The position numbers and the translations under genes were made by a program. Below the pieces are notes generated by a model. That model did no database searches. It saw nothing but the letters and a program-made list of their open reading frames with translations, and was not told the origin of the DNA. This document shows, piece after piece, positions 4,464 to 49,924 of a stretch of 64,000 nucleotides of DNA (within the stretch, counting starts at the first letter, position 1; every line of letters starts with the position of its first letter). Origin of the DNA: Amphibalanus amphitrite (lineage: Eukaryota > Arthropoda > Thecostraca > Balanomorpha > Balanidae); assembly GCF_019059575.1 (NCBI RefSeq), contig NW_024882908.1, positions 1-64,000 of the forward strand, read 5' to 3'.

Positions 4464-5013
4464 TTAACCCGCGCCCTGCTGGGGGTCCTGGATTTCCACG
4501 CCCTGCTGGGGGGGGGGTGTTTGAACACCCCCCTTGTAACTCGGCTCCTGGGCCACGTAGCGATACGCGGAAGGCGGCGTTCGAAAGAGCGTAAAAAATA
4601 ATGACGAAATCACTTCGGTCAATTTTTTGGTCAGGTTAAAGGTCAGGTCACCAGAGGTCATTGAAGGCAAAATTTCGCCGATTTCCAGGTCGAATGTCGA
4701 AAATTTCCAAGAAGCCAACGCATAACTCGGGAACCAATAGAGCTACAGCGCCGCGGAAAAGCGCATTCGATAGCCCTATTAACGCCCTTTCTGAGTAATT
4801 CTCTCAGATTTGACCTAACGTCAACGGTTTTGCCTGCAGGGGGCAAAAACTGCAAAAAGCCGATTTTTTCGAAAACAGTTTTTCTGCAATAACTTTTGAC
4901 CCAAGCCTTGTACGAGCTTACTTTTACCGGCATCGTGTTCCTCTCGTCAAGACGCATCGAATGAACTATAACTTGACCTTGAAAGGTCAACTTGAAAATT
5001 TGACCTCAGGTCA

Positions 5014-5025
5014 AGGTCATGACCT
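5014..5025. promoter_or_regulatory. Palindromic nuclear-receptor-type site (IR0) inside family A copy 1
   Basis: The 12-mer AGGTCATGACCT is a perfect inverted repeat of the nuclear hormone receptor half-site with no spacer. It overlaps TCAAGGTCA at 5011-5019, the extended monomer site known for FTZ-F1 and ERR receptors. The match to the motif is seen in the sequence; binding is inference. The same palindrome is kept in copy 2 at 11188-11199. Confidence 0.4.
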
Positions 5026-5551
5026 GACCGGAAAGGGTCATGTTGCATATCAGTCGATCCGTATCGTCGAGCTGAACACATCTAAGGCGTTTTCATCGCT
5101 CTAGCATGCCTCTATCAAAAGTTATTTGCGAAAAACTGATAGATACCATTCGTGACCTAAGATGACCTCAGGGCATAAACAAGGGTCACGGACACCATTT
5201 TCAAGTTCAGTGTGTCTAAACCACTTGTAATTCGGTGTTTGGGAGTGTTTATAATGTCTTTCATCCAAAAGAGGCGCATTTCAATTTTCTCCCATTGAAT
5301 GGGGAGGTCGCAAAATTGACCTGACCTTAGGTCATCGATATCAAAATTCTGAGATATACATTTTGTACATGCTATTGCTCTTAGCAATCGCTGAAAGTTT
5401 CAAAGCGATCGGTCACTCGGTGTAGCTATGACAGACATTGAAACTTTTTATGAGGTGAGGTCACTTCAAGTGACCTGGTGACCTGACCTTGAATGACCTT
5501 GGTCTGAAATTTTCACAACATGTGTAGAATTGATGTATGATAAGGTATACT

Positions 5552-5582
5552 AAAAACGGCGGCGCTCCGCGCCGCCGTTTTT
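5552..5582. repeat. Perfect GC-rich hairpin at the end of family A copy 1
   Basis: A 14-bp perfect stem (A5 then CGGCGGCGC, loop TCC, the complement then T5) sits about 60 bp from the right end of the element. The inverted copy 2 has the same hairpin at 10627-10655. It is a conserved structural part of the element and probably explains its subterminal secondary structure. Confidence 0.7.
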
Positions 5583-5645
5583 GAGATATTCGCGAAAAAC
5601 CACAAGGGGGGGTGTTCAAACACCCCCCAGCAGGGCGCGGGTTAA

Positions 5646-10566: not shown

Positions 10567-11734
10567 TTAACCCCGCCGGGGGGGGGTGTTTGAACACCCC
10601 CCCTTGCGGTTTTTCGCAGATATCTCAAAACGGCGGCGCGGAGCGCCGCCGTTTTTGGCACACCTGTTCGTGCATCTTTTCCGCACATGTTGTGAAAATT
10701 TCAGACCCAGGTCACCTTAGGTCAGGTCACCAGGTCACGCCAAGTGACCTCACCTCAGAAAAATAAGAATGCTCGTCATAGCTACACCGACTGAACGATT
10801 GCCTTGAAACTTTCAGCGATTGATTAGAGCAACACTATCTATAAAATGTATATCTCGGAATTTTGATATCGGTGACCTAAGGTCAGGTCAATTTTGCGGC
10901 CTCTCCATTATAAGTCAATGGGAGAAAATTGAAAAGCGTCTGTTTTGCACGAACGCTATTCTAGACACGCTCAAACATCGAGATGTGGGTAAAATAGACA
11001 CACTGAACCATAAAATGGCAACTGTGACCCCTCGTTATGTCCCCGAGTCATCTCAGGTCACGAACAGAATCTAACAGTTTTTCGATGATAACTTCTGATA
11101 GAGGCGTGCTAGAGCGCTGAAAACGCCTTAGATGTGTTCGGCTCGACGTTGCGGATCGACTGATATGCAACATGACCTTTTCCGGTCAGGTCATGACCTT
11201 GACCTGAGGTCAAATTTTCAAGTTGACCTTTCAAGGTCAAATTATAGTTCATTCGACGCGTCTCGACGAGAGGAACACGATGCTGGCAAAAGTAATGTCA
11301 TAGCTCTTTTGAGTCAAAAGTTATTGCCTAAAAAACGTTTTTCGTAAAAACGGCTATTTTTGGAGTTTTTGCCCTCTGGAGGCTAAACCGTTGACCTGAG
11401 GTCAAATCTGAGAACATTACTCAGAAAGGTCTGTAAAAGGGCTATCGAATGCGCTTTTTTGCGGCGCTGTAGCTCTATCGGTTCCCGAGATAGCCGTTGG
11501 CAGTTTCCAAAATGTTGAAATAGTCAACATTTTACCTTTGGTGACCTCAAGTGACCTGACCTTTGACCTGACCCAAAAAATGACCGAAGTGTTTTCGTCC
11601 TTATTTTTGACGTTCTTTCGATTGCCGCTTACCGCGTGTCGCTACGTGGCCCAGGAGCCGAGTTAGAAGGGGGTGTTCAAACCCCCCCAGCGGCCCGGCG
11701 CGGAATCTCAGAGCACCGGCCCGGCGCGGGTTAA
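10567..11734 (-). mobile_element. TTAA-flanked non-autonomous DNA transposon, family A copy 2 (inverted)
   Basis: Bounded by TTAA at 10567-10570 and 11731-11734, with CCCCGCCGGGGGG at the left and CCGGCGCGGG at the right end. It aligns through its whole length with 4464-5645 read in the opposite direction, including GTGTTTGAACACCC, the GC hairpin, the AGGTCATGACCT palindrome (11188-11199) and a terminal duplication at the matching end. It has no coding capacity. The two copies differ at many positions, so they are not recent duplicates of each other. Confidence 0.8.
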
Positions 11735-26915: not shown

Positions 26916-27117
26916 GTATTCTTAACAAGTGGTGCGGAAACTCGGGGAGCTCACTATGGCAGAGCTGGCCCGCATGAAGAGAGTGAGATCGGCGGCTAAA
27001 GGATGGCTATCCAGAACCGCTGAGAAAGTTGAGAGTGCACTTTCACCCAAGAGAGAGGAGCCACTGCCTCAAAGTGACCCCTCTCTCCCGGGTTTCGGCA
27101 CCACTTGTTAAGAATAC
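26916..27117 (+). mobile_element. Possible scrap of an LTR-type element
   Basis: A ~60-codon frame with a basic, gag-leader-like composition (AAKGWLSRTAEKVESAL) lies between 35-bp inverted arms (26916-26950 and 27083-27117). The arms carry TGGTGCGGAAAC, similar to a primer-binding region. It is far too short to be a whole element and is a fossil fragment at most. The family (possibly BEL/Pao) is a guess. Confidence 0.25.
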
Positions 27118-30288: not shown

Positions 30289-33200
30289 GTAAGTTTATGA
30301 TCACTAATCGCTATTGGTTCATCATGTTGGCGCGAGTCAGCTTGTCAGGATGGCTAGTTTCCATACCGTAAAGTGGGGCTATTTGAGACAGTGGGGCTAT
30401 TTGAGACAGTATTTAAAATCGCTATAAAATGAAGATCGTTTGATTTTTGTGTGATATTTTTGCTCAGGGAGGTGTGGAATCGAGCAGTAAATCGCCTGAG
30501 CAAAAAATTAAGCATAAATTTTAAGTGGTTTTTATTTTATAGCAATTTTAAATACTGTCTCAAATAGCCCCACTGTCTCAAATAGCCCCACCTTACGGTA
30601 CTTATGTTGTTACGGAGCGAGCGAAGCGAGCGGAGTCTTTCCTTAGATTAACGGAAATTTCTGAGTATTAGCGACCGGCCGGCCGTGCGGACGCTTTTGC
30701 GAGGCTTATATCTCAGCAACCACTTGACCGATTTACATGCGGTAATTTTTGTAGGGTAGCTTCATTCCTTCTGCCAAGTATTGGACTATTCCCGATGCAT
30801 GTGGGTGACCCCTTATGCGCGTGCCACGTGCAAAACGAAGAGGTGTCAGTTTTGTAATTGTTGCAATATCTCTGTAACTACTGGGCCGATTGCGCTGAAA
30901 GTTGGTATGTAGGTAGGCACCCACTAGGCAATGCCTATCCATGTGCCAGAGTTTGGGTGCTGCTGCACGTGCGCACGTGCAGGGATCGTTTCCAGATCTC
31001 GAGAACGGCTCGATCGATTGCGCTCAAATTTGGTACACAGTTAGGGACCGGTTAGTAAGGTGCGGTGCAAAAGTCAGTCGGAACCCATTTTGCACGTGCG
31101 CACGTGCAGGGTGTCGCTTCCAGATCTCGAGAACGGCTGGGCCGATTGCGCTCAAATTTGGCACATCGCTAGAGAGTAGACCGGTTAGTAGGGTGCCGTG
31201 CACAAGTCAGTTTGAGGTACCCCCTCGCAATTTTGCACGTGCAAGGCCCACCCTCTCGTTCGCTCCGTTAGTCGCCCCAAAAGGCGTTATACTGGTATTT
31301 ACTTATTTTGTGTACTTATTTTGTGTGCTTATTTTGTGTACTTGTTTTGTATGTACTTATTGTGTGTACTTATTTTGTGCGATTAGACTCGTAAGGCACC
31401 TGAGGGTATGTGATGGTAGGGATTTGCACAGGTGATCTGACTAACTGGTTGGTGGGGTCTGTCGTTCCTTCGCCATTTATAAGAGGTCCGTTGGACCCCC
31501 CCCTTGCCGTTTGGCCCCTGATCGAGCTAGAGCTGTGCGGAAAAAACGAGCGTGTTGCCCATGACGAGAGGAAGCTGATGCTACCCAATTTTAAGGTCCT
31601 AGGTCATTCGTTGACCTTCCAGATCAGGTCAATGACCCAAAAATCGGGGAAAATCGGGCCCTGTCAGAGCTTCGTGAAGTGTGGCTGGTATGGGGTTATT
31701 CGGGGTACCTGACCACGAATATCATATTAGTTTTGATTACAGATGCTGTATTTAGGCCCGGTTGGATCAGGTCAGGTCAGGTCAACCAGTAGGGGTCCTG
31801 CCGGGTATTCGTAGTAGGAGCCAACCGCCTCTGACAGCTTCGTAACCTGTTACTAAGGCACCAAAAGTACTTCGTCAATGTTCAAATGGTTGATTAATTC
31901 GAATTCAGCTCCAAAAGCTAGCTTAGAAACATGTAAAACTTGTCAAAGTAAACCGAAAAGGCCAGTGACTTGACCTGACCTTCAGGAGACCTTGACACCC
32001 ACCCCAATGCATGGAACCACCATCATATCACATGTTTGAACGCTTGAAACCACGAAGACTGCAAACGCGCGCGAGCCGACATACGCCGCATCGCGATTCC
32101 GGCCAAACATGGTCTCGAGAAATAGAGTCATAGGTCAAAGGTCATTTGGGTCAGGGTCATGAAATTTTCAGGGTATGTGTAAAATTGATTAAGTCGAGGG
32201 TACTGTAAATATCTTCGTGATCGGCCGTTTTTATGCGAGTTATTCGCGAAAAACCGAGGGGGTCAGTTAACCCCCCCCCCCTATACGGGCGAGGGTAACC
32301 CCCCTCTATACCCCCTCACGCCGTCCCATTAGAAGCACTCCTTGTGCTTCTAATGGGACGGCGTCGTAAAACAATTAGGTAGCACGATATGTCGTGATCT
32401 CTTTTCTTATGCGTATGCATAGTGGCGTTGATGCACTTGTATCATTCTTGGTAGACATTCTTGGCATTTTCGTGACCGTGAATTTCTAGGACCGTTGTTT
32501 GGTCTAACTTTGGGCCGTGTGGGTAACTTTGTTCCACGAGGAAAAAAATGGCTAAATTTTAATCAGCTTAATACCTATGCGCGAGAAATGGCATTTTTGG
32601 GCCGGAACCAATGAAGTAGTCAATGATAAACCCAGGGACACAAAAAATACGTCATCATGTCGATTTTGGATTTTCTAGATTTTTTTGGGTGAAGCTCCTT
32701 TTTTTCACCCAATATTAAGGTTTAGGTAGGTCCCTGTACGGGGCTCAGATGCTACCAGCCGAATCGACTTTTGCAATTTGCCTGAATAGGACATCATGTG
32801 AACTTTGCATTCGACTATTGGTAATTTATTTTCCTCAAACATTTTTTTTTTTAAATTTGGGGGTGGTCAATGTTTATACATATTTTTTGCCGTTAATTCA
32901 ATAACTTTGGGCCACCCGCAGGAAGGGTACACCATATGATGAAGACACCATATGACACCATATGATGAAGAGGGTCGTCGTGTCGTTCGTTGTGTTCCGT
33001 GCCTTTTATTGTGTGTGGTTCGTCGCGTCGTTGGTTGTGCGTAAATGTCCCAGCGGGATACGTAAGCGACCTACAGTCATGATGGTGTGCATCATCCCGT
33101 GACTATGTTTGTACAGTGTGTCTAAAAAGAATGTACCGTCGCCACCACGTGGCGCTGGTGTCGCGAGCCGGTAGTTGGCTGAATCCGCACCAGACCACAC

Positions 33201-36200
33201 ATTCCCAGGCGCTAGGTGACAGCTGCGCAGCGGCCGGTAGTAGCGTAAGCCCGAACCTTCGTGACACGACCCCGGGGGGGGGGGGAGTGAGGGGAGCGGG
33301 CGGGGCAGCGCGTGTAGGGAGGGGTGCTCCAGCAAGCTGGCAGTTGTCGCGGCCAAAGGTCAAGGGGTCACACACCAAGCGAACGGACGCTGATGTGGGT
33401 TCGTGGGGATCATGAACTTGTGTGTGGTAGGTGCGTCTTGCGATGCACGGGTGATACGCCAGGTTTAAGCCAAAGGATTCAGGGGAGAGCTGAAGAAAAC
33501 ACCTGGTCAACTACGGCGAATAATAGTGCTGAAAAATGGAAAGTATGGGTCAATGCAAGCCTTCATGACTATAAACAACTTTCTGATGACGCAAAGGCCA
33601 GCATTGAATAACGATATCCGGATCGAAATTAGCAATGATTTATAATTAAATGCCGAACTAATAGCGCTGCAAAGTAAATTGTCAAGTCGATTTATACCCA
33701 CTTGGATTAAACTATCCTAAATAAAATTGTTAATTAACTTTCTAACACTGACGTTCTTTATCATACGATAAGTATGGGGTTAACCAAGATTCAGCATCTT
33801 CCGCGTTCAAACAATCACCTGTAAGGCTAGAACATTAATGGCCAGGTAAAAACATGGTCGGGATTTGATTAACCGGATTATAAGTCGATTTTTTTAGTCG
33901 GGATTTGATAAGTCAGATTTTTTTACGCCAACCGCATTTTTAAGACAAGTCAGGTCACTGATATATGACGTCATAAATGAGCAGTCCTAAAATGAACTGT
34001 GTGAAACTGTCCTAAACTGTCCTCAACATTTTAGGACTGTGTGCACGCTCCTAAAATGTTCAACTTCGCTACACCCTCAGTGCAGAGCTTTCATAGGGAG
34101 ATGAAACTTACAGGATCTTATAGTATGATCGAGAGTCTCACAACTTGTATAAATGTATATCTCGGATTTTCTGAAGGGTCGCCTGAGATCAGGTCAGTCT
34201 CTCACCATTAAAAGTCAGGGGAATATGGAAATTGCTAGTTTGGTCCGGAAATGATATACAACTATCTCAAATTTTCAAGCACACGGAATCGTGATTTCAT
34301 GCGCTCCTTGCAAGGTCTGATGCTTTAATTTTGCTTTGTTGATCTTGCGTGACGTCATTTATCACGTAACCAAGGGTATCAGTTTTTCGTCAATAACTCC
34401 CGATCAACTAAAGCTAGCGAGTCGATAAAGCCACTAATGGACATGAAAAGACCTGCCGAATCGATTGATATGCAATATGACCTTCTTTGACCAGCTTCGT
34501 GACCTGACGGGCTGTGACCTGACCTTGACCCGAGGTTAACACCTTAACTCTCGCCCATATTGGTGTTTTTCCAGCCGCAAACGTATAAGGGGGGGGGGGG
34601 GTCCGTTGGACCCTCCCTTGCCGTTTCGCCCCTGATCGAGCTAGAGCTTCGCGGAAAAAACGAGCGTGTTGGCCGTGACGAGAGGAAGTCGATGATACCC
34701 AATTTTAAGGTCCTAGGTCATCGGTTGACTTTCCAGGTCAGGTCAATGACCCAAAAGTCGGGAAAATCGGGTCTGTTAGAAAGTCGTAAAGCGTGGCTGC
34801 TATGGGGTTTTCGGGGTGCTGATCACGAATATCATGTTAGTTTTGATCACAGATGATGTCTTCATGCATTTAGGCCAGGTCGGGTCAGGTCAGGTCAGGT
34901 CAACCAGTAAGGGTATTCGTAGTAGGTGGCAACCGCCTCTGACAGCTTCGCAACATGTTACGAGGGCACCAAAACTACTTCGTAAATGTTCATATGGCTG
35001 CTAAATTCGAATTCAGCTCCTAAAACTGGCCTAGAAACATGTAAAACTCGAAAAAGTGAACCGAGGTCATCAAAGGTCAATGACCTGACCTGACTTTCCG
35101 GTGACCTTGACACCCACCCTAATGCATGGAAGCAACATCATATCCCATGTTTGAACGCTTAAAACCACGAAAAAGACTGCAAACGCGCCGCTAATGCGAG
35201 CCGACATACGCCGAATCGCGATTCCGGCCAAACATGGTCTCGAAAAGTAGGTCGCAGGTCAAAGGTCATTAAGGTCAGGGTCATGACAGTTTCAGGGTGG
35301 ATGTAAAATTGATTAACGCGAGGGTAACGAAAGTTTAATCGCGATCGGCCGCTTTTTACGCGAGTTATTCGCGAAAAACCGAGGGAGGGGGGTCCGTTCG
35401 ACCCCCCCCCCCTATACGGGCGAGGGTTAAGTTGATCTCACCCGAAGAAAAAGTGTACCATTCGACACGCCTGAGCTAGACAAACACGATGCTGCTAAAA
35501 TCGCGGATCTGCGATCATTTTTAGCGAAGTTATTTACCAAAAACCGAACCTGTGCCTTGGGCCACTTGACCTGACATCCGAAGTCATCGGCTGACCCTGG
35601 TCCTTAAATCGGAGACCAATCGCTGCATTTCGTAACGACGCACACGATCGTTTCTTTCGTGAGGCTCTAGCTCAATTAGGGGCGAATCGGCGAAGGGGGT
35701 TGTTTCCTCACTTCCAACCCCCCAACGTCCCTCGGTATTCAGAAAACCTGAAGGTCCGGTGAGGGTTAAAACGTTTCTCCTGAACGAGGAAGAAATGTAG
35801 AAGTCAAAGCTCTATAGACGTCCTGTAAAAGTGGCCATAATAATAAATTCGTTAGAAATAAGATGCTTTTTAAACGACTTCCTCATATAAAATCGGGTGC
35901 TGGGACCAATCTTATAAACGCTTTAGAATGGACAGGGCGTCACTGGCTAAAGTTTGGGTGCAGAAAACGGCTATTACCTAAATGCAAAATGGTTTTCATG
36001 CATTTCAGTCAATTGTATATTGTCGGTCCCAGTGGCCGAGCTAAAAAAAAAAAAAATCGGTAGTGTTTTGCATCTTTTACGCCCTAAGAAACTACACCAT
36101 CTATCGAAGTGGGCGGGCTTATTTGAATGGGAGGGCGCATTATGCACGAATCGAACTGCTTTCGTTTATTTTGGACTGTATTTTACCACATCCACTGCTG

Positions 36201-39200
36201 GTATCACTATTAATATTATCTAATGCCGTGAATACGACAGCATTCCATTTATAAGATTGGGCCAATGGAGTCGCGCCCCGCGAGCTCGGTTTTCCGCTGG
36301 GCCGCTACAGGCCAGGAAGTCGGTCTTCGCCTGAGGGCAGGACAAAGGTCAGCGAGGGAGCGCGGGGTCAGCCAGGTATCGCCAAGTGCCGAGCGGATGC
36401 CGCTCCCTCCCCTCTCTTCCCCTCTTCTCCCCTCCCCACCTCGGTATAGATGGGGAGGGACCGAACTGCCAATGACATGCGAGCGGTCAAGGCCGCTCGC
36501 GCGGCAGCGACCCTGGCGGCCGGATGCCGCAACTGGGATTCAGCCAAGTTGCCGATTCGCCTCCTGTGGGAGAGCCAAACCAGGGGACATACTTTTTAGA
36601 TATACTGTACAATGTACAAGTTTGCTGTTCCTTTTTTAAAAGCCCCTAAGTGGACCAATGTATCCATAACGACCGCTAACATTGATACTTTTGGCTTTTC
36701 CATTGTTTTATTGATGCATTTATTCATATGGTACAAAGTTATTTTTGTGCGGGTAACATTGTGCCACTCTAATTTCAAAAAATAAATTATATGTCATTAT
36801 CCAAAAAAATTAAGAGTGACTATAGGTGACCAGCAGGGATGTCACTGCCTTACTGCACAATTTCCTGAACAATTAACAAAATAATTTGGAAGTAATACGA
36901 AGAAAAGTCAAAAACTGGTACAAAGTTAGGCCAAACAACGGGATCGTCTTTGTTATGTAATGGGACCTGGCGAAGTCACTATGTAGTAAAACTTTACTTC
37001 ATTATTCAGCAAAGTTGACGAGCGCACGAATGCCCTTTCCAAAATCCGTTTTAATTTGGCGCGGCGCTCAGCCATGTGTCCCGACTTTCCAAGACGGAGT
37101 CGCTCTTAATTGTCTGATGCAGGTCTTAAAATGGTACGGCTCTCGCGAGATTAAGCGGTAGGTTTTGCACTTTTACATTTCCGGTTATATCTCAGAAACT
37201 AATCGATCTACGATTAAGCCATTTTACACGTTCATGGCCGGCTTGTTACCCAACAAGTCGATCGCGTCTTCAACACTTAAAAGCTTAAGACGACGAAGAT
37301 ATGGCCTGAAGTACACTACATTTTCTAGGTGCAAAACCTACCGCTAAAACCCGCGAGACCTGTCGTCCATTACCGGTAGCGTTGTTCGGTCGGCGTGGCA
37401 TAGAAAACAGCGGTGCTGTTCAAGCTAATGTAACGTCACAGTGCTGAGACCAGTGACAAGACAACATCCGATTTCATATAGTAAATGTTATGTTGTAACC
37501 ACTATCGAAATTTTACGTTCATTGAATATCTTCCGTACTTAAGTCCCGTTTTCTCTGGTGTAACTGACAGTGCATTCTGGCCGCGATTTGCCGTCGACAT
37601 TTCCCATGCACGTCATCCCACTGAACGGGTCCGTGCGCCGCCAGGACTTGGAGCAGGGCCTGTTGGCGGAGCGAGACGAGTCGCCGCTGCTGCAGCAGCT
37701 GCTGGTGCGCCTGCTGCAGGGATGCCTCCCAGAGTATGACGTCTCCGTGCACAACTGGCAGCACTACCTGAGGCGACTGCTCAAGTTCAAGTGCTTGGTG
37801 AGTTACCCTTACCAACCGCGGTGACCAATTCGTGTCGGCGGCGCTCGAGTAATCGATAGGCGTTTATCCACGAGTTTGTTTATTTGTTTTACACGAAAAT
37901 AGTATCAGTGACTGCCAATTTATGTATTTAATCAAAAGTAGCGTCCCGTTTGTTGTTATTTTCGGGCATTTCATGCGGATTGAACGGCAATAATGCATCC
38001 CACGGACAGTCAGTTGTGGAACTATAATTGCTTCTGAGAGCTGTTGATGCCACAGAACACCGATGGCGCCCCGTGAGGTCGTCCCCTGACGAGTTTTTGT
38101 GTGGCGTGTGTTCCAGGAGGACCCCACCATCGCCAACCCGCTGGGTGAGACGGGCGACTTTTATGACCTGTCGCTGCGCACACGCGTCACCGTCCTCCAA
38201 CTGCTCTGCGACCTGCGTTTGGAGGCAGAGGACGTGATCGACCTTCTCAAGGTGGGTGGAAAGTCCTGGTAGAGCTGGGGGATTATCCTGACTGGTAGGG
38301 TTCAGTGGGCTGTGGGTGGAAGCTTGGGTTTTATGTCAAACTGTTGATGTGTGGAAAGCCTGGACGTGGTCTATACGACCTGTTGGTTTTTCATTCACTA
38401 TAACAGCGCAATTTTCTTTTTGTTCTCAGAACCTTGAGGCGGACAGCCTGCGAGTCGAGCCTTTGGGTCACGACGACTGCGGTGCCACCTATTGGTATTT
38501 TTATGGAACTCGCCTCTATAAAGAGGTAAGTCTGATGCTGCGGGTTACGGACAAAAGTACGTATCGCTAAAGTACGTAGGACAAAAGTACGTAAGCAAAA
38601 GTACGTAGGATTTAAGTACGTATCGCAGAAGTACGTACAGTATAAAGTACGTATGGACAAAAGTACGTCAGGGACAAAAGTACGTATCGCAGAAGTACGT
38701 ACAGTATAAAGTACGCATGGACAAAAGTACGTCAGGGACAAAAGTACGTATCGCAGAAGTACGTATAGTATAAAGTACGTATGGACAAAAGTACGTCAGG
38801 GACAAAAGTACGTATAGCTAATGTACGTAGGGTAAAAAGTACGTATGGACAAAAGTACGTCAGGGACAAAAGTACGTATCGCAGAAGTACGTAGGGTATA
38901 AAGTACGTACGGACAAAAGTACGTCACGGACAAAAGTACGTATAGCTAATGTACGTAGGGTAAAAAGTACGTATGGACAAAAGTACGTCACGGACAAAAG
39001 TACGTATGGCAGAAGTACGTAAGGGTATAAAGTACGTAAACGTATGGACAAAAGTACGTCACGTACAAAAGTACATATAACAAATGTACGTAGGGTATAA
39101 TGAAGGATAAAGACGCAAGGTAAAGACCTTGGGCAAGACGCCCCAGATAATCTATTTTGCTACATAGGCCTACCAGGCCTACCTAAATTTTGTGCTACAT

Positions 39201-42200
39201 CACCTGGAAGGCCAAATTTGTACTCAATGTGTTCTTTGGACATTTTACTTTAAATTCCACCCCTCAAATTCATTCACTTATGATCGGACTCCCAGCTAGG
39301 AAGTGATTTGTGAAGCAACTGCAAATGGGACATTTTGCCCCAACCCCAGGGCAAAACGCCCCACGGCCTGAGGCAAGAAGCCCCATACTCTAGAGTCTAG
39401 CTTAAAGATTAAACATGGTAGTTGGCTAAATCTTATATGAGAGATCCGTTAGACCGCTGGAGGCACGGCACTGAAGTTAGCACCTTCCATCCTATCAGGT
39501 GTTCAGCTATGACACTATTGTATGAGCAGGTTTTTCACGTGCCTCATAAGGCCAAATAATAAATTATTGCAATGCAAATCAGTTAACAATACACTTCCTT
39601 TGCCATACAGTTGCTGAGAAAAATACATATAAATGCATAGAAACTTGCTGTTCGCCAGCTACCGAACATTAGGAAGTGGGTAGTCCGAACAACACATGAG
39701 GTAAAACGCCCCATGGGGCTTTTTGCCCCGCGACCTACTGGGGCGTTTTACCCCATCATGTAGTTCGGTCAGCGAACAACGCCTTGTGCTCCAGCAAGAC
39801 ATAATTTAACACGAACCAACCCGGCATTATAAGCGTTAGACAATAGTTGTTCAAAATACATAAAAGTCGTTAACCTGATGTGGACTACAAAAGAACGCGA
39901 GGATGCATAATCAGATGACCAAACATAAAAATCACTAAAAAAACAACACATTTTTGGCTATATCTCCCAGAGAGTTATCACAATTTCTTTCCAGAATGAT
40001 CATATAGTGCACGTTTAACAGAAGAGAGGACCTTTCCCCAGAACCCTATCAGTTCCGAGAGATATCGGTGAGGCCGCCAGGCGTTTTACCTCGGCGGGGC
40101 GACTTGCCCCGGTCTACCCTACGTGTGGACCAAGTACGTCACGGACAAAAGTACGTATAGCAAATGTACGTAGGGTATAAAGTACGTACCCCACCCATGG
40201 GGTAAGTTGATCAATGTGTAATACCTTTCTTATTCTTTATTTAATGAGCATTTGTTACAAGGCATAGCAAAATTTCTCGATGAGTAAATGGGCGAAAGGA
40301 ACAAAGCTATATTATTTGGTACCTATATGAATTTATCATGAGTTCCCTATAGTATGGCAAGAGGGCAGCAATAAAGAAAAAGTGGCTCAACTTACACTAC
40401 TATACCCTACTTCTAGCATACGTACTTATACACTACGTGCTTTGGCATACGAACCGTACGTACTTTTGGCATACGTACTTTTTACACTACGTACTTTTTC
40501 ATACGAACTTTTGCGTACGAACATTTGCGTACGTACTTTTGGCATACGTACTTTATACACTACGTACTTTTGCAAACGTACTTTTGCGTACGAACATTTG
40601 CGTACGTACTTTTGGCATACGTACTTTATACACTACGTACTTTTGCATACGAACATTTGCGTACGTACTTTTGGCATACGTACTTTTTACACTACGTACT
40701 TTTGCATACGTACTTTTGCGTACGAGCATTTGCGTACGTACTTTTGGCATACGTACTTTATGCACTACGTACTTTTTCATACGTACTTTTGCGTACGAAC
40801 ATTTGCGTACGTACTTTTGACATACGTACTTTATGCACTACGTACTTTTGCATACGTACTTTTACGTACGAACATTTGCGTACGTACTTTTGGCATACGA
40901 ACTTTAGCGCCTACGTATATTTGCGTACGAACATTAGCATACGTACTTTTGTCCTACGTACTTTAGCGATACGTACTTTAGTCCTAAAATCCTGATGCTG
41001 CAGTGGTCTCCCCTTACTCATGTATAATTTTTGTCATTAGGAGCAATCAATCATATTCAGCGAAGTTAACCTGATCTTTTTCTAGAGCATGATGCTGTCG
41101 CAGTTTTGTGAGGATTCAGCACACCACAATAATTTCTTTGTATTTTCATTTTTACACAGTTTCGAAGGGATTGAGTCATAGTTTCATGCACCTCATTCAG
41201 GTTTCCATCTTTGACATGATTGTGTTCGAAGAATGACATCTCATTTCTGGTTACTCCTATTTCCCCGCTATTCGTACGAGAATCAGCGCTTCATCACTGA
41301 CACCGCTCTCTCCACCGTCTGCAGAGCGGCGGGGACGAGAGCGCCGGCCGGCCGGGCTGGCAGTGCGTCTGTGTGTCGGCCGATGACTGGCGGGCGCTGG
41401 CCGACTCGTACAGCGGCTCCCGGTCGCCGCTCGAGCTCGAACTCTACCACACTCTGAAGGAGGACTTCCTGCCGGAGATACCGCGGCTCTTCGCGCAGAA
41501 ACAGAAACTGCAGGCGAGTTTGAGAGACGGGCGGAGGTTGTTGTAGTGGACGGAAGAGGTGGGCGGGACCGCAATAACCTATACAGTATGTGGTATGTGG
41601 TATGCTGAGAGTTCGTCTACTAATTTAAATGATACAAAGTCAATTTATGTGGTGCAGACTAGGGTCGCGGTAGGTCTTACATCTCAATTAATATTTTACT
41701 TTACATTCGGATGTTTACACGTTCTTGATGTTGTACTGCAGTCATCTAACGCGGTTATGTTCCGCCAACAGAAGAAGCGCCAGCTGGAGATGGGCCCGCG
41801 ACGGCAGTCGTCTCGAGGAAGGACGGCCGACCCCGCCTCGCCCGAGTCTGCGCCGTCGCCCACGCCGCCGCCGGCCGCCCCCGCCCCCGCCCCGCCGGTC
41901 ACGCTGGCCCAGAAGGCTGGCAAGGGCATCCGTAAGGGCAAGGACTCACCGGCCGAGTCGCCCCGCAGGGAGAAATCCGACGTCAAAAAGCCGCCCGCGT
42001 CGCCATCCGTCTCCAAACGAGACAGGAATGAGATTAAAGAATCTTCGGGGTCGGCGAAGAAGGATAAAGATTCAAAGAAAGCTGCAGCTAAACTCAAAGA
42101 AGATGTTAAAAAGTCACCCGTCTCAGCATCGCCCAAGCGAGATAAGTCCTCCGCAAAGAAGGCAAAGAAAGAGGATATTGACGATAGTAATGTTGCGGTG

Positions 42201-45200: not shown

Positions 45201-48200
45201 ATATTTGTTGTAAATGCGTTGAGATTGACTATCCCAATGTCAGTAGCCGCCCCTGTCTTGTCCCAGCCGTCCCGCTGACGGCGCCGCCTCTCTCCCGTTG
45301 CAGAGTACACGGAGATGGTGGTGAACATTGAGCGCGAGTTCCGTAAGGCCGTCCACAAGTACCTGGATATTGAGGAGGAGGATGGCGAGGAGATACTTAT
45401 CGACGTCTCCCAGGTGCAGTCCAAGCAGAGGCGCAACTCGCGCTCGCCACGACCGGCCACCTTAGCCGTCGGCAAGAAACGGGGCCGGAAACCCAAGGCG
45501 GCGGCCGGAGACGGCGTCGGTAAGGGCCGCGGAAGGAAGAAGAAGCAGCAGATGTTTATTGATTACAGTGATGACGAGCTGCTGAGCTCTCCGCGGTCCA
45601 AGCCGCCGACAGCAGAGGATACGGAGAGATTGTTTGATGATCTGTTAAAGACCACCTCGTCGCCGCCGCGCGTCTCTACACCGCCGAGAGCGGCTGAGGA
45701 TCTGTCAAAGAAGAAGAAAAAGAGCAAGAGCCGCCCGCCGCCGCCGGCGCCCGAGCCTGAGCCGGAGCCGGCTGAACCGCCGCCAGAGAAGGTCAAAAAG
45801 CCGTCCAAGGCTACCAAACGCGGCAGCAGCGGCGGTGCGGCGGCCGCCAAGCGGGCGGCCGAGCGGCAGCAGTCCAAGCCGATAGACAGCGACGTCTCTG
45901 ACATGGACGACGACTCGTTCCACGACGGCCTGGCCGAGATGAGCTCTCGGCGGCGCGGCCGCACCGCCGCGCCCCCGTCCCCGGCAGCACCGGCGCCGCC
46001 CCCGTCACCCCCGCCGCCGCCGCCACCGCCGGCCGCCGCTGAGTCGGACGACGACGATGATGATGATGATAGCGAGAGCGGTTCGCCCAAGAAAATCATC
46101 GCCCAGGGTCGCATTTTCGCATCCAAGATGAGACGGAAGAAGGCTGCCGAGCGGCAAACTGCCCCCGTTAAACCGACGCCGCCCAAACCTCCCACGCCCA
46201 AGGCGGCGCCGCCGAAACCGTCGTCCCCGAAAGTGGCGCCGCCCCCGCCCAAGCCGGCCCGCCAGCCGTCGCCGGAGAAACAGCAGGCAAAGCGGGAGCG
46301 TAGTCGGCATCGGTCCGATTCCGAGGAGCCCGACCGGCCGGGGACCAAGAACAAGGACAAGGGTAGCAAGCGGTCGAGGTCGCAGAGCAAGGACAAGAAG
46401 GACAGTAAGCGGAAGAAGAGGAAAACGCACGGGAAGGAGAAGAGGAGTCACTCGCAGGCCAGCCCGGAGAAGGATGAAGATGAATTAGTGGTGAGTACAC
46501 GATCGATGCGGCTTAGTAGTAATTGGCTCGCAGATCTAATTGACAGCTCAGTGGTAATTAAAATCAATTAGGGACGATGTGCATATTGTCGCGTCGGCGT
46601 GCGGCCGCTGGGGGTCAGGGGAGGATTGGGTCACCAGTGGCCCTTGAACGGGTACCTAGGAACTTTGGCGTGTCGTTTCATAATCTTGTAGCTAACATAG
46701 TATAATGTTTATTGTAGATTATTGGGTCTGGCTCTACAATGGGTTTAGAGTGAGACGACACTTTTGCTGTTGCTTCAAGTCTCAATTTAATGCTTATAGC
46801 GCTAACCACAACTAATGAGAGGGCATGACAGCTAGTCTGTCCACTGAATGTCGTGATTTATCGATGTTTCACCTTTCTGGCGCATCTTGTCGAGCCTGAG
46901 AGGGACCCAGCGCCCTCTGTTTTGATTGCCGACTGCGCCAAACACAGCATGTTCCACTCCCTGTCCCACATGCTGAGTTCTCCTATCTCCCTGCTGTGGA
47001 GTCCCGTCGTTGAATCCCTCTTTCTCTATTTTCAGGCTCCAGCCAGCCCCCGCCCGGCCACGCCTCCGTCACCGGCCCGCTCGCCGCCGCCGCGGAGCGC
47101 CGAGCCAGAGCTGGACGATGACGAGTACGCCACGCTGCCCGAGCCACTGCCCGAGAGGCGCCGCTCCGAGTCTGGCTCCGACGCCGAGGACGAGCTGAAA
47201 CCCAAGGAGAAACGCCGAGACCGCATTCGACCGCAGGACATCATGCGACAGAAGAACGCATCGATGAAGGAGAGTTCTGACAGCAAACAGGCCAGCAAGC
47301 CGAAACCGCTCTTCAACAGTAGATCCATCTCTAAAGAGGAGAACGCGAAGCTAGGCGAGTTAATATCGCGGGTGCGTGAGTCGCGCGGTGGCGGTGCCAC
47401 GCTGCTGTCCAACGGGCCGGGACTGACGATGGGGAAAGTGCTGGGAGGGCTCTCGGACAGGGACAAGTCGGGAGAGGAGGTCTGGGAGGAGCTGGTCGGT
47501 AAGCGGCTGAAGGCGGAGCCGACTCTGCCGTCCCGGCGGCGCAGTGCCGAGGATGACGAGCCGCTCCGGCTCATCGCCGAGCCGGAGGAGGGCCAGGAGC
47601 TGCCCGTGCTGAAGAAAACGGCCACTCCCAACCTGCGCGCGTGGTTCACCGCGTTCCGCTCCAAGAAGGACGCCGAGCCCACACCGCCGCCGACTCCGGC
47701 CCCCAAGGTGAAGAAGCCGCCTCCGACACCGCAGCGGGAGGAGACCAAGACGGTGAAGCCGCCGGCGACTCCCTCGGCGGCGTCCTCTTCGCCGAAGGAG
47801 GCAACAAAGAAGACGGAGGCGACGAAGGACTCCGTCAAGGAGAAATCCCCTCCGGCCTCGCTGGCGTCGCCGGGGGCGTCTGCCTCGGCGTCCGCCGCCC
47901 GCGAGGAGCCTCCAAAGTCAGACTCGCCGTCGACGAGCAGTTGGAAGGCGCGCGCGGGCTCCCCACAGCCGCCCGGCCCGCCGCCCGATTTCCAGTATGA
48001 TGACGATGAGTTGGAGAAGGCTCGTCTCCAGGTGAAGGCCCGCGAGGCGCAGCGACTGGAGAGCGAGAAGCGCCGGCTGGAGTCTGCCAACTCGCAGTCC
48101 CCGGCGCACCCGGACGCCAAGTCGCCGTTCTATCAGACCAGCTCAGAGAGTGAGAAGTCGCCCATGACGCCCGGTTACGGCGGCATCGTCTCGCCGGCGA

Positions 48201-49924
48201 TGGACTATCAAAAATCGCCGGCGTTCTCGCCCAAACAGCCGCCGACGGCTCCGTTCTCGGACGCGACCAAGTACAACGGCGGCGTGAAGCCCGGCTTCTA
48301 CCAGGATATGACACAGAAGACGGCCAGTCCGGACAAGTCGCCGTATCGCCGTCCGGGCTCCGTGGCCAGCACCCACTCCCCGGCGTCGGTGGCGGGCAGT
48401 CCCGCCTACCAGCCCAACAGCCCGCAGGTGGGTCCGGCCGCCGCCGCCGCCGCCTTCTCCGGGTACTACGGCGGGGCGCACAAGGAGCTGGGGGCCAGCG
48501 CGGCGGCCAAGTCGGCCGGCCAGCTCATGTCGCCGCCGAGCCGGCCGGCGGGCCCGGGCCGCGTGGCGCCCACCCTGCCCAGTCCGGACCCGGCGGCGCT
48601 GCTGCACGGCCGAACGACCGCCGACGATAAGCCCGGCTTCCCGTTCAAGAAGCGGGTGCAGGCCGACCTGGCGCTGGGCGGCGGTCAGGTGTACCAGCCG
48701 CAGTCTGCCGCCGCGCAGACACCCTACCAGCAAAACCAGCAGCCCACCCAGCAGCAGGCGCACAGCAAGTCGCAGCTGCCGACCGCCGCCGCCTACCAGC
48801 AGCTGCCCGGGAACCTGGGCAATATCTCCCAGCTGGTGACACGGTTACCGCAGCAGCAGCAGCAGCAGCACCAACAGCAGCAGCAGGAGGCTCGGGAGAA
48901 GCAGGAGGCGGTAGCGGCAGCTGCCGCCGCGGCGCAGAAAGAAGCAGCTGCGGCGGCTGAGGCGGCGGCCGCCCGGCAGCTACTGCAGCGGCAAAAGGGC
49001 CAGCAGCTGGAGGCGCAGGTGCGGCTGATCCAGGAGCAGAAGCAGAAGCAGCAGAAGCAGATGGCCGGCGAGCGGCAGCAGGCCGAGAAGCAGCAGCAGC
49101 AGGCCAGCAAGGCTGTCGAGCAGCTGCAGCAGCAGCAGCAGCAGGCCGTCTCTACCGCCGGCATGTCGCCCAACAGCTGGAGCGCCAACTCCGTCTCCTA
49201 CTTCAAACAGATGGCCAGTCCGCACATGCAGCTTTACCACCAGCAGCAGACGATGAAGGCGTTCCAGCAGCACCAGCAGCAGCAGCAACAACAGCAGGAA
49301 CAGCAGCAGCAGCAGCAGCAGCAGCCGCAGGCGCACCAGCACCAGACGCAGCCGCAGCAGCAGCAGCAGAGCGGCGCCGACGGCGGCGGGAAGGCCTCGG
49401 GCGGCGGGAAGACGCCGGCCGTCACCACCAGCTCGTCGTCGGGTCTGAACCTGGGCGGGCTGGGCGGCCTGGTACCCGGCGCCGGCTACAACCCGCTGCT
49501 GCCGTCCAGCTTCCAGGCGTCGCTGGGCGGCGGCACGTACCCGTACCTGGGCCTGGGCCAGTCGCGCTCGCCGCAGCCGGCGCACCAGAACTTCAACCAG
49601 GCGCACGCGTCGCTGTCGCAGATGGGCGGCCAGGCGCGCGCGGCGGCCGGCTCTCCACACAGCTCGCAGGCCTCCTCGTTGCTGACGCCGTCACCGTTCG
49701 GCGCGGCGGCGCGCGGCCACCCGCTGAGCTCGGAGACCATGTACCAGCAGTACTACCGGCAGCAGGAGGAGCTGCTGCTGCACCACCAGGCCGGCGCCGC
49801 CATGGCCATGGCCATGGGCGCGGCGGCCGGCGGCTATCCGCCCGGCTACCCGCACCTCTCGTCGCTGCGCCAGGCGCCCGGCTTCCAGCCGCCGGGGGGC
49901 GTGTCGCGCTCGCCGTTCTTCTAG
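30200..49924 (+). CDS. CECR2: CECR2/dikar-type DDT-bromodomain chromatin protein, ten exons (first exon not found)
   Basis: Exons 30200-30288, 37645-37797, 38117-38251, 38430-38525, 41325-41513, 41742-42631, 42938-43606, 44207-44469, 45304-46490 and 47036-49924 join in phase to 2185 residues and a TAG stop. CECR2 is a nuclear subunit that pairs with ISWI ATPases (CERF complex) and binds acetyl-lysine. The N-terminal third follows human CECR2 almost block for block: [51 protein letters not shown] and [14 protein letters not shown]. Then come a K/S/P-rich basic linker (residues ~220-740), a bromodomain (~740-860), an AT-hook (GKKRGRKPK), acidic runs, and a ~960-residue P/S/A/Q-rich tail. Human CECR2 is about 1484 aa, so this protein is longer. 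Only the exon holding the start codon is missing; exon 2 begins with two bases of a split codon. The first intron found is 7.4 kb and transposon-filled; the others are mostly short. Confidence 0.92.
30364..30600. mobile_element. Hairpin MITE with TA ends (mariner-like)
   Basis: An almost perfect palindrome of two ~67-bp arms (TACCGTAARGTGGGGC, then GTGGGGCTATTTGAGACAG twice) around a ~100-bp core. Both ends are TA, the usual target of Tc1/mariner elements. It lies 76 bp inside the first known CECR2 intron, so the transcript can fold here. Confidence 0.8.
30612..31268. mobile_element. Repeat with inverted ends ACGGAGCG and three internal ~115-bp units
   Basis: The ends ACGGAGCGAGCGA and its complement TCGTTCGCTCCGT form a short inverted repeat. 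Inside, TTGCACGTGCGCACGTGCAGG followed by CAGATCTCGAGAACGGCT, CGATTGCGCTCAAATTTGG recurs at about 30960, 31090 and (part) 31230, and a diverged form at 30850. The unit contains the palindrome GCACGTGCGCACGTGC with CACGTG E-boxes. Confidence 0.55.
31296..31385. repeat. Short tandem repeat TTATTTTGTGTAC
   Basis: Six to seven units of 13-15 bp (ACTTATTTTGTGT) lie between two transposon copies in the CECR2 intron. Confidence 0.8.
31465..32294. mobile_element. Family B TTAA-type element, copy 1
   Basis: Closely related over its length to 34544-35430: GTCCGTTGGACC, GATCGAGCTAGAGCT, AATTTTAAGGTCCTAGGTCAT, CGAATATCAT, AACCGCCTCTGACAGCTTCG and GATCGGCCG..TTATTCGCGAAAAACC occur in the same order. The right end reads CTATACGGGCGAGGGTAA. 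The left TTAA is not intact. It has no coding capacity and is rich in AGGTCA/TGACCT hexamers. Confidence 0.7.
32295..34059. other. Intron sequence of CECR2 with no supported feature
   Basis: AT-balanced sequence. It contains a short inverted repeat GACGGCGT..AGAAGCACTCCTTGTGCTTCT (32320-32365) and a CCCCGG/G run near 33270. CTAAAATGTTC/GAACATTTTAGGAC-type short inverted motifs occur at 34000-34060. Open frames at 33100-33600 do not resemble known proteins. Confidence 0.35.
34060..35769 (-). mobile_element. Family A-related element, copy 3, split by family B
   Basis: 34060-34543 and 35431-35769 align with copy 2 (10567-11734) on either side of a TTAA-flanked insertion. On the left are TGTATATCTCGGA, TCAGGTCA and CGATTGATATGCAA; on the right CATTCGACRCGYCT and AACACGATGCTGSYAAA. 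The right end is GGTGAGGGTTAA at 35758-35769; the left end is lost. It is more diverged than copies 1 and 2. Confidence 0.65.
34544..35430. mobile_element. Family B TTAA-type element, copy 2, nested in family A
   Basis: Exact TTAA at 34544-34547 and 35427-35430, with inverted ends CTCTCGCCCATAT and ATACGGGCGAGGG, then poly-G/poly-C and GTCCGTTGGACC/GTCCGTTCGACC. It is non-coding. The outer element reads straight on once one TTAA and the insert are set aside, which shows that family B moved after this family A copy was in place. Confidence 0.8.
35770..37153. other. CECR2 intron, no supported feature
   Basis: Mixed sequence with a GC-rich block at 36260-36600 and an A13 run near 36040. Open frames here are short and unfamiliar. 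Confidence 0.35.
37154..37345. mobile_element. 192-bp MITE with 17-bp inverted ends
   Basis: The ends AGCGGTAGGTTTTGCAC (37154-37170) and its exact complement (37329-37345) enclose ~158 bp of non-coding sequence. It lies 300 bp before a CECR2 exon. The flanking bases do not show a clear duplication longer than three bases. Confidence 0.7.
37645..38525 (+). CDS. CECR2: CECR2 exons 3-5: rest of DDT and WHIM-like region
   Basis: Three exons (37645-37797, 38117-38251, 38430-38525) of 51, 45 and 32 whole codons. They encode [31 protein letters not shown], the [12 protein letters not shown] helix and [25 protein letters not shown]. The last block is the most conserved part of the family outside the bromodomain and marks the end of the ISWI-binding region. 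All three donors (GTGAGT, GTGGGT, GTAAGT) and acceptors are clean. Confidence 0.92.
38550..39090 (+). repeat. Left TACGTA array
   Basis: A ~64-bp higher-order unit made of four AAGTACGTA-type blocks separated by TGGACA, CAGGGACA, TCGCAG and GGGTATA spacers. It is repeated about eight times, then interrupted by the insertion at 39119-40126 and resumed for about 60 bp. Confidence 0.9.
39119..40126. mobile_element. ~1 kb element nested in the left TACGTA array
   Basis: The ends GGTAAAGACCTTGGGCAAG and the complement of CTTGCCCCGGTCTACC form an imperfect inverted repeat with the shared core GGGCAAGNCGCCCC. The motif GGCAAAACGCCCC or its complement recurs inside (39350, 39700-39750, 40080). It has no transposase frame. 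The host array continues in the same direction on its far side. Confidence 0.55.
40390..40985 (-). repeat. Right TACGTA array
   Basis: Blocks TACGTACTTTTG repeat with CATACG, TGCG and ACACTA spacers in ~60-66 bp higher-order units. This is the opposite orientation to the left array. Spacers differ from the left arm, so pairing between arms would be strong over the ends and patchy in the middle. Confidence 0.9.
41325..41513 (+). CDS. CECR2: CECR2 exon 6, followed by a probable GC donor
   Basis: 63 codons with [18 protein letters not shown] and [20 protein letters not shown], matching human WWLLCQTEEEWRQV and LYKLLSEDFLPEICNMIAQK. The only donor in the right place is CAG/GCGAGT at 41514, a GC-AG intron. 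The next exon has good acceptors at 41741 and, ten codons later, at 41771. Confidence 0.85.
44207..45425 (+). CDS. CECR2: CECR2 bromodomain (exon 9 and start of exon 10)
   Basis: Exon 9 (44207-44469) and the first ~120 bases of exon 10 (from 45304) encode the bromodomain. The visible parts are helix Z ([20 protein letters not shown]), the ZA loop [30 protein letters not shown], and CKLYN, whose Asn (44454-44456) is the acetyl-lysine-binding position. Helix C follows across the splice ([20 protein letters not shown]). All key residues are present, so acetyl-lysine binding should be intact. The junction splits a GAG codon (G/AG). Confidence 0.93.
45471..45497 (+). other. CECR2: AT-hook motif in CECR2
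   Basis: The codons spell GKKRGRKPK, with the RGRKP core expected of an AT-hook that binds the minor groove of AT-rich DNA. A second basic GRGRKKK follows 30 bases later. Human CECR2 has a comparable RRGRPPKRKK, but ahead of its bromodomain rather than after it, so the hook may have moved or arisen separately. Confidence 0.7.
47036..49924 (+). CDS. CECR2: CECR2 last exon: long P/S/Q/A-rich tail
   Basis: A single 2889-base exon of 962 codons ending SRSPFF and TAG. It opens with P/S-rich and acidic sequence. It includes the short hydrophobic-basic patches [19 protein letters not shown] and [14 protein letters not shown], which look constrained. After these come many SPxxP/KSP sites and several glutamine runs (48850-48890, 49125-49145, 49260-49325) set in alanine-rich coiled-coil-like sequence. 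The tail is probably disordered. Glutamine runs are CAG-rich and so potentially length-variable. Confidence 0.88.
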   Translation, partial: APASPRPATPPSPARSPPPRSAEPELDDDEYATLPEPLPERRRSESGSDAEDELKPKEKRRDRIRPQDIMRQKNASMKESSDSKQASKPKPLFNSRSISKEENAKLGELISRVRESRGGGATLLSNGPGLTMGKVLGGLSDRDKSGEEVWEELVGKRLKAEPTLPSRRRSAEDDEPLRLIAEPEEGQELPVLKKTATPNLRAWFTAFRSKKDAEPTPPPTPAPKVKKPPPTPQREETKTVKPPATPSAASSSPKEATKKTEATKDSVKEKSPPASLASPGASASASAAREEPPKSDSPSTSSWKARAGSPQPPGPPPDFQYDDDELEKARLQVKAREAQRLESEKRRLESANSQSPAHPDAKSPFYQTSSESEKSPMTPGYGGIVSPAMDYQKSPAFSPKQPPTAPFSDATKYNGGVKPGFYQDMTQKTASPDKSPYRRPGSVASTHSPASVAGSPAYQPNSPQVGPAAAAAAFSGYYGGAHKELGASAAAKSAGQLMSPPSRPAGPGRVAPTLPSPDPAALLHGRTTADDKPGFPFKKRVQADLALGGGQVYQPQSAAAQTPYQQNQQPTQQQAHSKSQLPTAAAYQQLPGNLGNISQLVTRLPQQQQQQHQQQQQEAREKQEAVAAAAAAAQKEAAAAAEAAAARQLLQRQKGQQLEAQVRLIQEQKQKQQKQMAGERQQAEKQQQQASKAVEQLQQQQQQAVSTAGMSPNSWSANSVSYFKQMASPHMQLYHQQQTMKAFQQHQQQQQQQQEQQQQQQQQPQAHQHQTQPQQQQQSGADGGGKASGGGKTPAVTTSSSSGLNLGGLGGLVPGAGYNPLLPSSFQASLGGGTYPYLGLGQSRSPQPAHQNFNQAHASLSQMGGQARAAAGSPHSSQASSLLTPSPFGAAARGHPLSSETMYQQYYRQQEELLLHHQAGAAMAMAMGAAAGGYPPGYPHLSSLRQAPGFQPPGGVSRSPFF

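Follow-up and report, generated by a model that had tools for sequence, protein, structure and literature searches.

Clusters of AGGTCA hexamers, evenly spaced and conserved in one copy pair, in probable piggyBac-like non-autonomous transposons of Amphibalanus amphitrite

The window analyzed here, 64,000 bases of Amphibalanus amphitrite DNA with about 52% G+C by base counts, contains two families of transposon, A and B, whose interiors carry clusters of the hexamer AGGTCA/TGACCT. Between the two copies of family A these hexamers are conserved at base resolution whereas the spacers within clusters have diverged, except in the central cluster, where both are identical. The constraint comes mainly from this one copy pair (A1/A2), to which family B adds weakly. 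Conserved, evenly spaced hexamers suggest that a DNA-binding protein matters for the spread of the element. We tentatively favor, with somewhat less than even confidence, a piggyBac-type non-autonomous transposon that would keep protein-binding sites while spreading, with a host nuclear receptor as the likeliest putative binder.

The first copy of family A (A1) occupies positions 4464–5645 on the forward strand, spans 1182 bp including a TTAA at both ends, and holds its hexamers in 6 clusters. Its terminal inverted repeats (4464–4485 on the forward strand, 5624–5645 on the reverse) match perfectly over 22 bp with the TTAA included, or 18 bp after it, and start with TTAACCCGCGCCC; the outer repeat is partly duplicated at the left end (4464–4513), where CGCCCTGCTGGGGG is present twice. 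The second copy (A2; 10567–11734, reverse strand) is 1168 bp long with TTAA at both ends, contains 22 hexamers in 6 clusters, and in its reversed orientation is 82% identical to A1 over 1192 aligned columns. Its ends match each other only partly, and the scan for TTAA-bounded inverted repeats did not recover it. In some counts A2 was taken from 10568, one base short, which may shift the counts of bases outside hexamers by about one base and leaves the hexamer counts unaffected.

Family B is represented by a copy with damaged ends (B1; 31485–32296, forward strand; 4 clusters) and by a TTAA-bounded copy of 887 bp (B2; 34544–35430, forward strand; 4 clusters), whose terminal inverted repeats match at 13/16 inner bases. 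B2 is inserted inside a further element, C (33940–35769), which is A-like and more diverged (about 45% from A2); the right-end TTAA of C lies at 35766–35769, and its left boundary at 33940 is a guess, namely a TTAA beside its first hexamer. With B2 taken out, the flanks of C align to A2 across the junction, and a TTAA stands at the insertion point. The original prediction had called family B enriched in the hexamer and otherwise different from A: the enrichment holds (10 hexamers in B1, 14 in B2), the difference only in part, as about 140 bp of right-end sequence are common to both families at 64–68% identity and the B tip, TTAACCCTCGCCC, resembles the A tip.

The scan for inverted repeats bounded by TTAA, with a threshold of 12/16 inner matches, returned four pairs, namely A1, B2 and two short ones (26922–27111 and 30413–30551, with 15/16 and 14/16 inner matches); the short pairs lack AGGTCA hexamers and are perhaps a different kind of small element. 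G-rich palindromes lie near both ends of A and of B2. Those of A1 are near-palindromes (4512–4533, with an inverted copy at 5607–5628), and those of B2 are at 34591–34616 and 35387–35412; the palindromic form is kept between the families while the letters differ, and each is possibly a hairpin or a dimer-binding site. A strong GC-rich hairpin is also seen near the right end of both copies of family A, at 10618–10657 and at 5552–5582, the latter with perfect 14-nt arms, a 3-nt gap and a DNA fold z of -7.4.

With respect to class, TTAA, the target site duplication of the piggyBac superfamily, flanks A1, A2 and B2 at both ends. The available part of a study of coral elements gives piggyBac-type terminal inverted repeats a length of about 12–19 bp and the hallmark tip CC[C/T]T (PMC2872659). 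The inverted repeats of A1 and B2 fit this length; the tips read CCCG at both ends of A1, CCCT at the right ends of B2 and C, and CTCT at the left end of B2. The elements resemble MITEs in combining inverted repeats with a non-coding interior, as judged from the scanned ORFs of at least 90 aa: the 7 stop-to-stop ORFs of this size that overlap A1, A2 or B2 yielded no Pfam family, nor did any of the 30 ORFs scanned as a selection of those in the window. MITEs are usually smaller than 500 bp (PMC2872659, available part), and since the elements measure 1182, 1168 and 887 bp, 'non-autonomous element' is the better name. The TTAA duplications and C-rich tips indicate piggyBac-type mobilization, and A and B are best regarded as TTAA/piggyBac-like, non-autonomous cut-and-paste DNA transposons, whose membership in the superfamily is only probable because A starts with CCCG in place of CC[C/T]T and the 30 scanned ORFs gave no Pfam match.

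Many minisatellites are found elsewhere in the window. Two arrays of TACGTACTTTTG-like units run in opposite orientation (38549–39100 and 40408–40979), and a 33-bp unit (CGGACGGTTGGTCGGTCGGTTACTTTACCCGGT) is repeated in about 29 copies at 53758–54740, where it is open in several frames. Long proline- and glutamine-rich reading frames lie at 41.5–50 kb, three of which were scanned with no Pfam match. Low-complexity frames in this region, at 45279–46571 (430 codons) and 46829–49924 (1031 codons), both measured stop to stop and both lacking a Pfam match, have the appearance of exons from a nuclear protein of the host. Scans of the 64-kb window for tRNA genes and Rfam families returned no matches.

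The hexamer is far more abundant in these elements than chance allows. The 20 exact AGGTCA/TGACCT matches originally claimed for the 1.18 kb of A1 were recovered on recounting with overlaps allowed (8 AGGTCA, 12 TGACCT). Without overlaps the count is 17, where 500 dinucleotide shuffles averaged 0.47 and never exceeded 4, and the commonest non-homopolymer 6-mer of any kind in these shuffles reached at most 9. B1 and B2 likewise lie far beyond their shuffles, with non-overlapping counts of 8 and 11 against means of 0.37 and 0.38. The four element regions together hold 73 AGGTCA in about 5.2 kb (14.1 per kb), as compared with 30 in the other 58.8 kb of the window (0.51 per kb). Chance and base composition as sources of the hexamers are ruled out by the shuffles and by this difference in density.

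The enrichment is also narrow with respect to sequence. Only two of the 18 one-mismatch neighbors are raised fourfold or more inside the elements, GGGTCA (14 inside vs 34 outside; 2.71 vs 0.58 per kb) and AAGTCA (8 vs 22; 1.55 vs 0.37 per kb). AGGTTA is raised threefold on small numbers (3 inside vs 11 outside), and the remaining versions show a rise of about twofold or less, or none, with AGTTCA at about twofold, a figure that comes from just 4 occurrences inside (5.2 kb) vs 23 outside (58.8 kb). The nuclear-receptor half-site consensus is given as RGKTCA in the accessible text of PMC1785376; the enriched AGGTCA and GGGTCA conform to it, and AAGTCA does not.

The purity of the motif bears on whether slippage of a short repeat such as (TCAGG)n generated the hexamers as by-products, with no protein involved, a reading that we disfavor and regard as very improbable. 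The repeat (TCAGG)n is tied to beetle telomeres. The 5-bp overlap expected of it is seen in 14/48 close hexamer pairs, and B2 contains the run GGTCAGGTCAGGTCAGGTCA at 34883–34902. However, imperfect copies of many kinds would be left behind by a simple repeat as it decayed, and most one-mismatch decay products are near background; the orientation and spacing of the hexamers are mixed; and the spacers diverge while the hexamers do not, with sharp six-base edges to the conservation in the A pair.

That conservation emerged from comparisons of A1 and A2. Nineteen hexamers stand at identical columns in A1, with its 20, and in A2, with its 22. Taken from A1 to A2, 19/20 hexamers are intact vs 322/785 other CpG-free six-base windows (Fisher 7e-7), and thus the hexamers of the A pair decay unlike the rest of the element; taken from A2 to A1, the figures are 19/22 and 316/713. 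At the level of single columns, 115/117 A1 hexamer columns are identical and 837/1024 columns outside, and the 2 changes seen in the 117 hexamer bases compare with 23.3 expected from trinucleotide contexts elsewhere in the element. When the hexamer pattern of A1 was shifted circularly, 1/1181 shifts (a one-base shift) reached the observed identity and none reached 19 intact hexamers; from A2 the result was 0/1167. The edge of the conserved unit is sharp: with both copies pooled, the hexamer positions are conserved in 40–42/42 cases, the next base upstream in 24/34 and the next base downstream in 24/30. Two possible sources of an apparent conservation were rejected, CpG decay by the use of CpG-free windows together with trinucleotide-context matching, and clustering by the circular shifts together with omission of the identical central cluster. 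The three hexamers found only in A2 read AGGTTA, ACGTCA and GGGTCA in A1, and the single A1-only hexamer reads TGACTC in A2.

The central cluster lies within a 62-bp block (4973–5034) over which A1 and A2 are identical in hexamers and spacers alike. The zero-spacer palindrome AGGTCATGACCT and the extended site TCAAGGTCA, both originally noted as kept in the second copy, fall inside this block and are indeed kept. With the central cluster left out, 79/81 hexamer bases match, as against 12/22 bases of within-cluster spacers and 47/60 in the 6-bp flanks (P 1.4e-6 for hexamers vs spacers). These figures weigh on the quite improbable reading in which an ancestral, hexamer-rich interior was simply inherited and the conservation of the A pair arose by accident in two related copies or through interlocus gene conversion. 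In its favor are the small sample of just two A copies, the identity of the central 62 bp across spacers as well as hexamers, and the weakness of the support from B; against it, the contrast persists in the other clusters, the changes fall far short of the 23.3 expected, and conversion tracts are not expected to end at six-base borders.

Family B gives a mixed picture. From B1 to B2, 8/10 hexamers are intact vs 219/534 other windows (P 0.02), and in the opposite direction 8/14 vs 218/471 (P 0.43). The context-matched test found 2 changes vs 9.1 expected (P 0.006) in one direction and 5 vs 6.9 (P 0.32) in the other, and the circular shift tests gave 16/811 and 295/827. Joined across the B2 site, element C has 5 hexamers, 3 of them intact in A2 and 2 opposite an A2 gap that covers all or part of the hexamer; its hexamer bases that align to A2 match at 20/22, vs 245/444 outside hexamers. 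In the reverse sense, 50/65 A2 hexamer bases match C, and 3/11 A2 hexamers are intact there. For the part of C left of B2, 2/3 of its hexamers are intact in A1 and 3/3 in A2, while C in turn keeps 2/7 hexamers of A1 and 3/7 of A2. Over the stretch in which the right end of C and the left end of B2 are alike, 1/1 C hexamer and 1/3 B2 hexamers are intact. This pattern, coming from C as one copy, agrees with selection while the lineages were moving and with later decay once a copy had grown old. Hence the possibility, raised at the outset, that the hexamers decay as fast as the rest of the element is not borne out in the A pair, and is answered in mixed fashion by B and by the loss of many sites in C.

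The same data can be set against the view that the host kept the sites after insertion and that the copies are putative receptor-dependent enhancers. Dense half-sites can serve as response elements, as the Alu DR2 sites do according to the accessible text of PMC1785376. However, selection on individual insertions would have had to preserve every cluster in each of two copies that lie about 5 kb from one another, and the loss of many sites in C is what is expected of free old copies. We consider this extremely unlikely.

The hexamers of A1 fall into six clusters: 3 hexamers at 4640–4660; 1 on the reverse strand at 4811–4816, where A2 has 2; 6 at 4974–5025, the central cluster, which comprises ER1, DR0 and IR0 arrangements as well as TCAAGGTCA; 2 on the reverse strand at 5153–5168, where A2 has 1; 3 at 5317–5334; and 5 at 5458–5499, just inside the right-end stretch common to A and B. 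With the element ends included, the successive gaps are 186, 164, 186, 161, 165, 153 and 167 bp in A1; 163, 152, 176, 148, 192, 158 and 179 bp in A2; 132, 160, 200, 162 and 158 bp in B1; and 188, 164, 191, 181 and 166 bp in B2. With the clusters and ends as borders, there are seven pieces in A, of about 169 bp, and five in B, of about 160–180 bp. Steps near 170 bp are comparable in size to a nucleosome repeat.

This layout is more even than random cluster placement produces (0/20000 for A1 and for A2, P 0.0018 for B1, P 0.0001 for B2), also when internal gaps alone are taken (0.0004, 0.003, 0.044 and 0.017, respectively), in a test that was picked after the spacing pattern had been seen. Since A1 is related to A2 and B1 to B2, these are two families and not four independent cases. 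The evenness is robust to cluster merging distances of 40–100 bp. With the pentamer GGTCA it holds in A2 (0/3000) and B2 (0.0003–0.0007), is weaker in A1 (P 0.002–0.035) and is absent in B1 (P 0.25–0.52). A best-period test that moved the clusters randomly gave no significant result (P 0.05–0.23), and GC content by distance from the cluster showed no clear linker/core pattern.

Comparison of the pieces with one another gave, among the best 25 comparisons, the clearest relationship within elements for pieces 2 and 3 of A1, inverted (z 10); the terminal pieces are also related (first and last of A1, first and last of B2), pieces 3 and 6 of A1 scored z 6.3 with uncertain meaning, and most pieces between clusters had no clear homology to one another. 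Masked lag identity was highest in A1 at 153 bp among 380 lags (0.297; mean 0.253, sd 0.016). In B2 it was highest at 291 bp, with 170 bp (0.294; mean 0.249, sd 0.019) the highest within 150–190 bp; the maxima at 153 and 170 bp are weak, about 2.4–2.8 sd. The weak lag signals and the inverted pieces 2 and 3 of A1 allow for an old duplication under the spacing, and a very old tandem duplication of an approximately 165-bp unit is a possible origin of it, to which the lags give a weak hint. The right-end cluster occupies the same place in A and B in mostly reversed orientation (4/5 TGACCT in A1, 3/3 AGGTCA in B2), and the two clusters have no hexamer in a common column, as if the right end needed a cluster and not a particular site.

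Even cluster spacing and transposase binding are both additions to what was originally proposed. Given that arrays of subterminal sites are common, transposase is the main rival to a host receptor: the hexamers could be sites of the element's transposase or of another protein of an autonomous partner, which would synapse or restrain the ends. The accessible text on piggyBac and piggyBat (PMC11707139) describes repeated subterminal transposase sites as common in transposons, where they may even inhibit, and reports for piggyBat three GCGGGA-plus-palindrome sites at an end and active ends of 153 and 208 bp, lengths that here would extend to the outer clusters. Transposase sites would moreover show base-level constraint between copies, as the A pair does. 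The position of the hexamers speaks the other way: they start 116–176 bp from the ends of A1, A2, B1 and B2, none lies within 115 bp, and they span the whole interior. By comparison, the footprint on the left end of piggyBat takes up its outer ~120 bp, and for piggyBac the minimal ends measure 35 and 63 bp (PMC11707139, same portion); the hexamers begin farther in than most of that footprint and than those minimal ends. A need for transposase alone does not predict even cluster steps of about 170 bp continuing to the center, and the core is identical to the nuclear-receptor half-site. On balance, we regard transposase binding as a serious but rather unlikely account, and a host nuclear receptor as the leading and likeliest candidate binder.

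The arrangement of half-sites within clusters constrains which receptor this might be. Among the 48 close hexamer pairs (gap of 15 bp or less, with related pairs of A1 and A2 counted separately), there are 14 one-base overlaps (AGGTCAGGTCA), 6 DR4, 5 ER1, 3 DR1 and one IR1, the last being the classical ecdysone (EcR/USP) palindrome. No fixed receptor-dimer spacing was found among them, only the overlap being dominant, and the overlapping repeats AGGTCAGGTCA could hardly be filled by two receptors together. The varied spacing speaks against the ecdysone receptor as a specific partner and in favor of a protein for which single half-sites suffice. Ecdysone targets, suggested originally, are thus not specifically indicated by this geometry; the broader proposal, of a mobile element with dense receptor half-sites, stands as regards the transposon anatomy, the hexamers beyond chance and their retention between the A copies. 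The extended site TCAAGGTCA is present 7 times when both strands of the four element regions are counted, so that a monomeric receptor is a possible binder. This site also fits the NR5A2 motif TCAAGG(C/T)CA as given in the accessible text of PMC11102866.

The receptor reading would account for these features as follows. The interior is a ladder of AGGTCA clusters about 150–200 bp apart, which would have been retained by selection on still-mobile lineages, with an AGGTCA-reading protein aiding the spread of the element. The putative binder, a host nuclear receptor able to act on lone half-sites or on half-sites without strict spacing, would occupy the linker of every nucleosome in turn, or DNA next to it, and could hold the chromatin of the element open, or phase it evenly, in germ cells or in the early embryo. 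Open or phased chromatin would in turn give access to the transposase, and in old copies the sites would be free to decay. A bolder version, which we consider speculative and unlikely, is that the transposon builds its own chromatin: half-site clusters would be set at each nucleosome step, a pioneer-type receptor would open or phase the copies where the transposase works, mobility would be under hormonal or developmental control, and the layout would have been reached twice. If so, families A and B would have arrived at one layout, of seven and five nucleosome lengths respectively, with sequence largely different outside the shared right end, and every insertion would place a strong receptor-binding array in the genome. 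These observations raise the questions of whether a nuclear receptor can be a host factor for DNA transposition, and of whether chromatin phasing shapes the anatomy of non-autonomous elements.

Relatives were sought by pattern scans of viral contigs and, with one pattern, of genome contigs, and none were found in either. A second scan of genome contigs, with a pattern of 16 specified bases, matched more than 118 stretches, the 118 listed being bacterial by their titles, where roughly 120 are expected by chance on an equal-base estimate. The 118 listed stretches have at most 9 hexamers per 1182 bp, and the densest parts of five of them showed no element-like structure. All were treated as chance matches. 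One such chance match, in a bacterial contig (L099, 1196–1276), has eight TGACCT in about 80 bp and looks like a short tandem repeat.

Transposons with transcription-factor sites are known, and whether the sites serve the element is often unclear. An AGGTCA-array DNA transposon was not found in the open-licence literature, among the titles and abstract beginnings of the matches listed. The comparisons that follow refer to the accessible portions of the reports cited. The heat shock elements of Caenorhabditis Helitrons (PMC6927752) are, like A and B, dense and partly tandem clusters for a single factor spread by a DNA transposon; they are bound by HSF-1, and the authors propose that they may first have served to mobilize the element itself. 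This case differs in factor (HSF-1), in class (Helitron) and in that binding was shown, whereas here binding is predicted from sequence; in the accessible portion we found neither a test of constraint on single bases between subfamilies nor spacing on the scale of nucleosomes. Alu DR2 retinoic acid response elements (PMC1785376) are likewise transposon-spread AGGTCA-type half-sites, some of them receptor-bound, but they consist chiefly of one DR2 pair arising largely by CpG deamination in AluS, whereas A has twenty sites, regularly clustered and retained from one copy to the other. In SINE B1 of mouse embryos (PMC11102866), the orphan receptor Nr5a2, which has pioneer activity, targets TCAAGG(C/T)CA in a transposon at genome activation; on the 601 template its preference is for nucleosome entry-exit DNA, and on a native sequence for sites nearer the dyad. 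SINE B1 differs in being a mammalian retrotransposon, and the portion available makes no mention of an array at nucleosome-length steps.

Among elements of similar anatomy, piggyBac and piggyBat have repeated end motifs that are transposase-bound and near the ends, within the outer ~120 bp on the left of piggyBat (PMC11707139). The coral CMITEs, which are piggyBac-type MITEs, share TTAA duplications and C-rich tips with A and B, and conservation between families is higher in their interior than in their terminal inverted repeats; unlike A and B they are about 100 bp long with a 75-base interior (PMC2872659). AGGTCA arrays are mentioned in the accessible portions of neither report. The bivalve Pearl/HINE elements (PMC7492417) are non-autonomous with interior units of about 140–180 bp (central repeats of ~160–170 bp); these units are tandem copies of each other in a Helentron-class element, whereas the pieces of A and B are mostly without clear homology. 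Thus, the closest precedent in mechanism is the Helitron, in motif the Alu DR2 sites and SINE B1, and in unit length HINE; what is new, in that the compared systems do not join them, is a dense half-site array, base-level constraint and nucleosome-scale steps together in one element.
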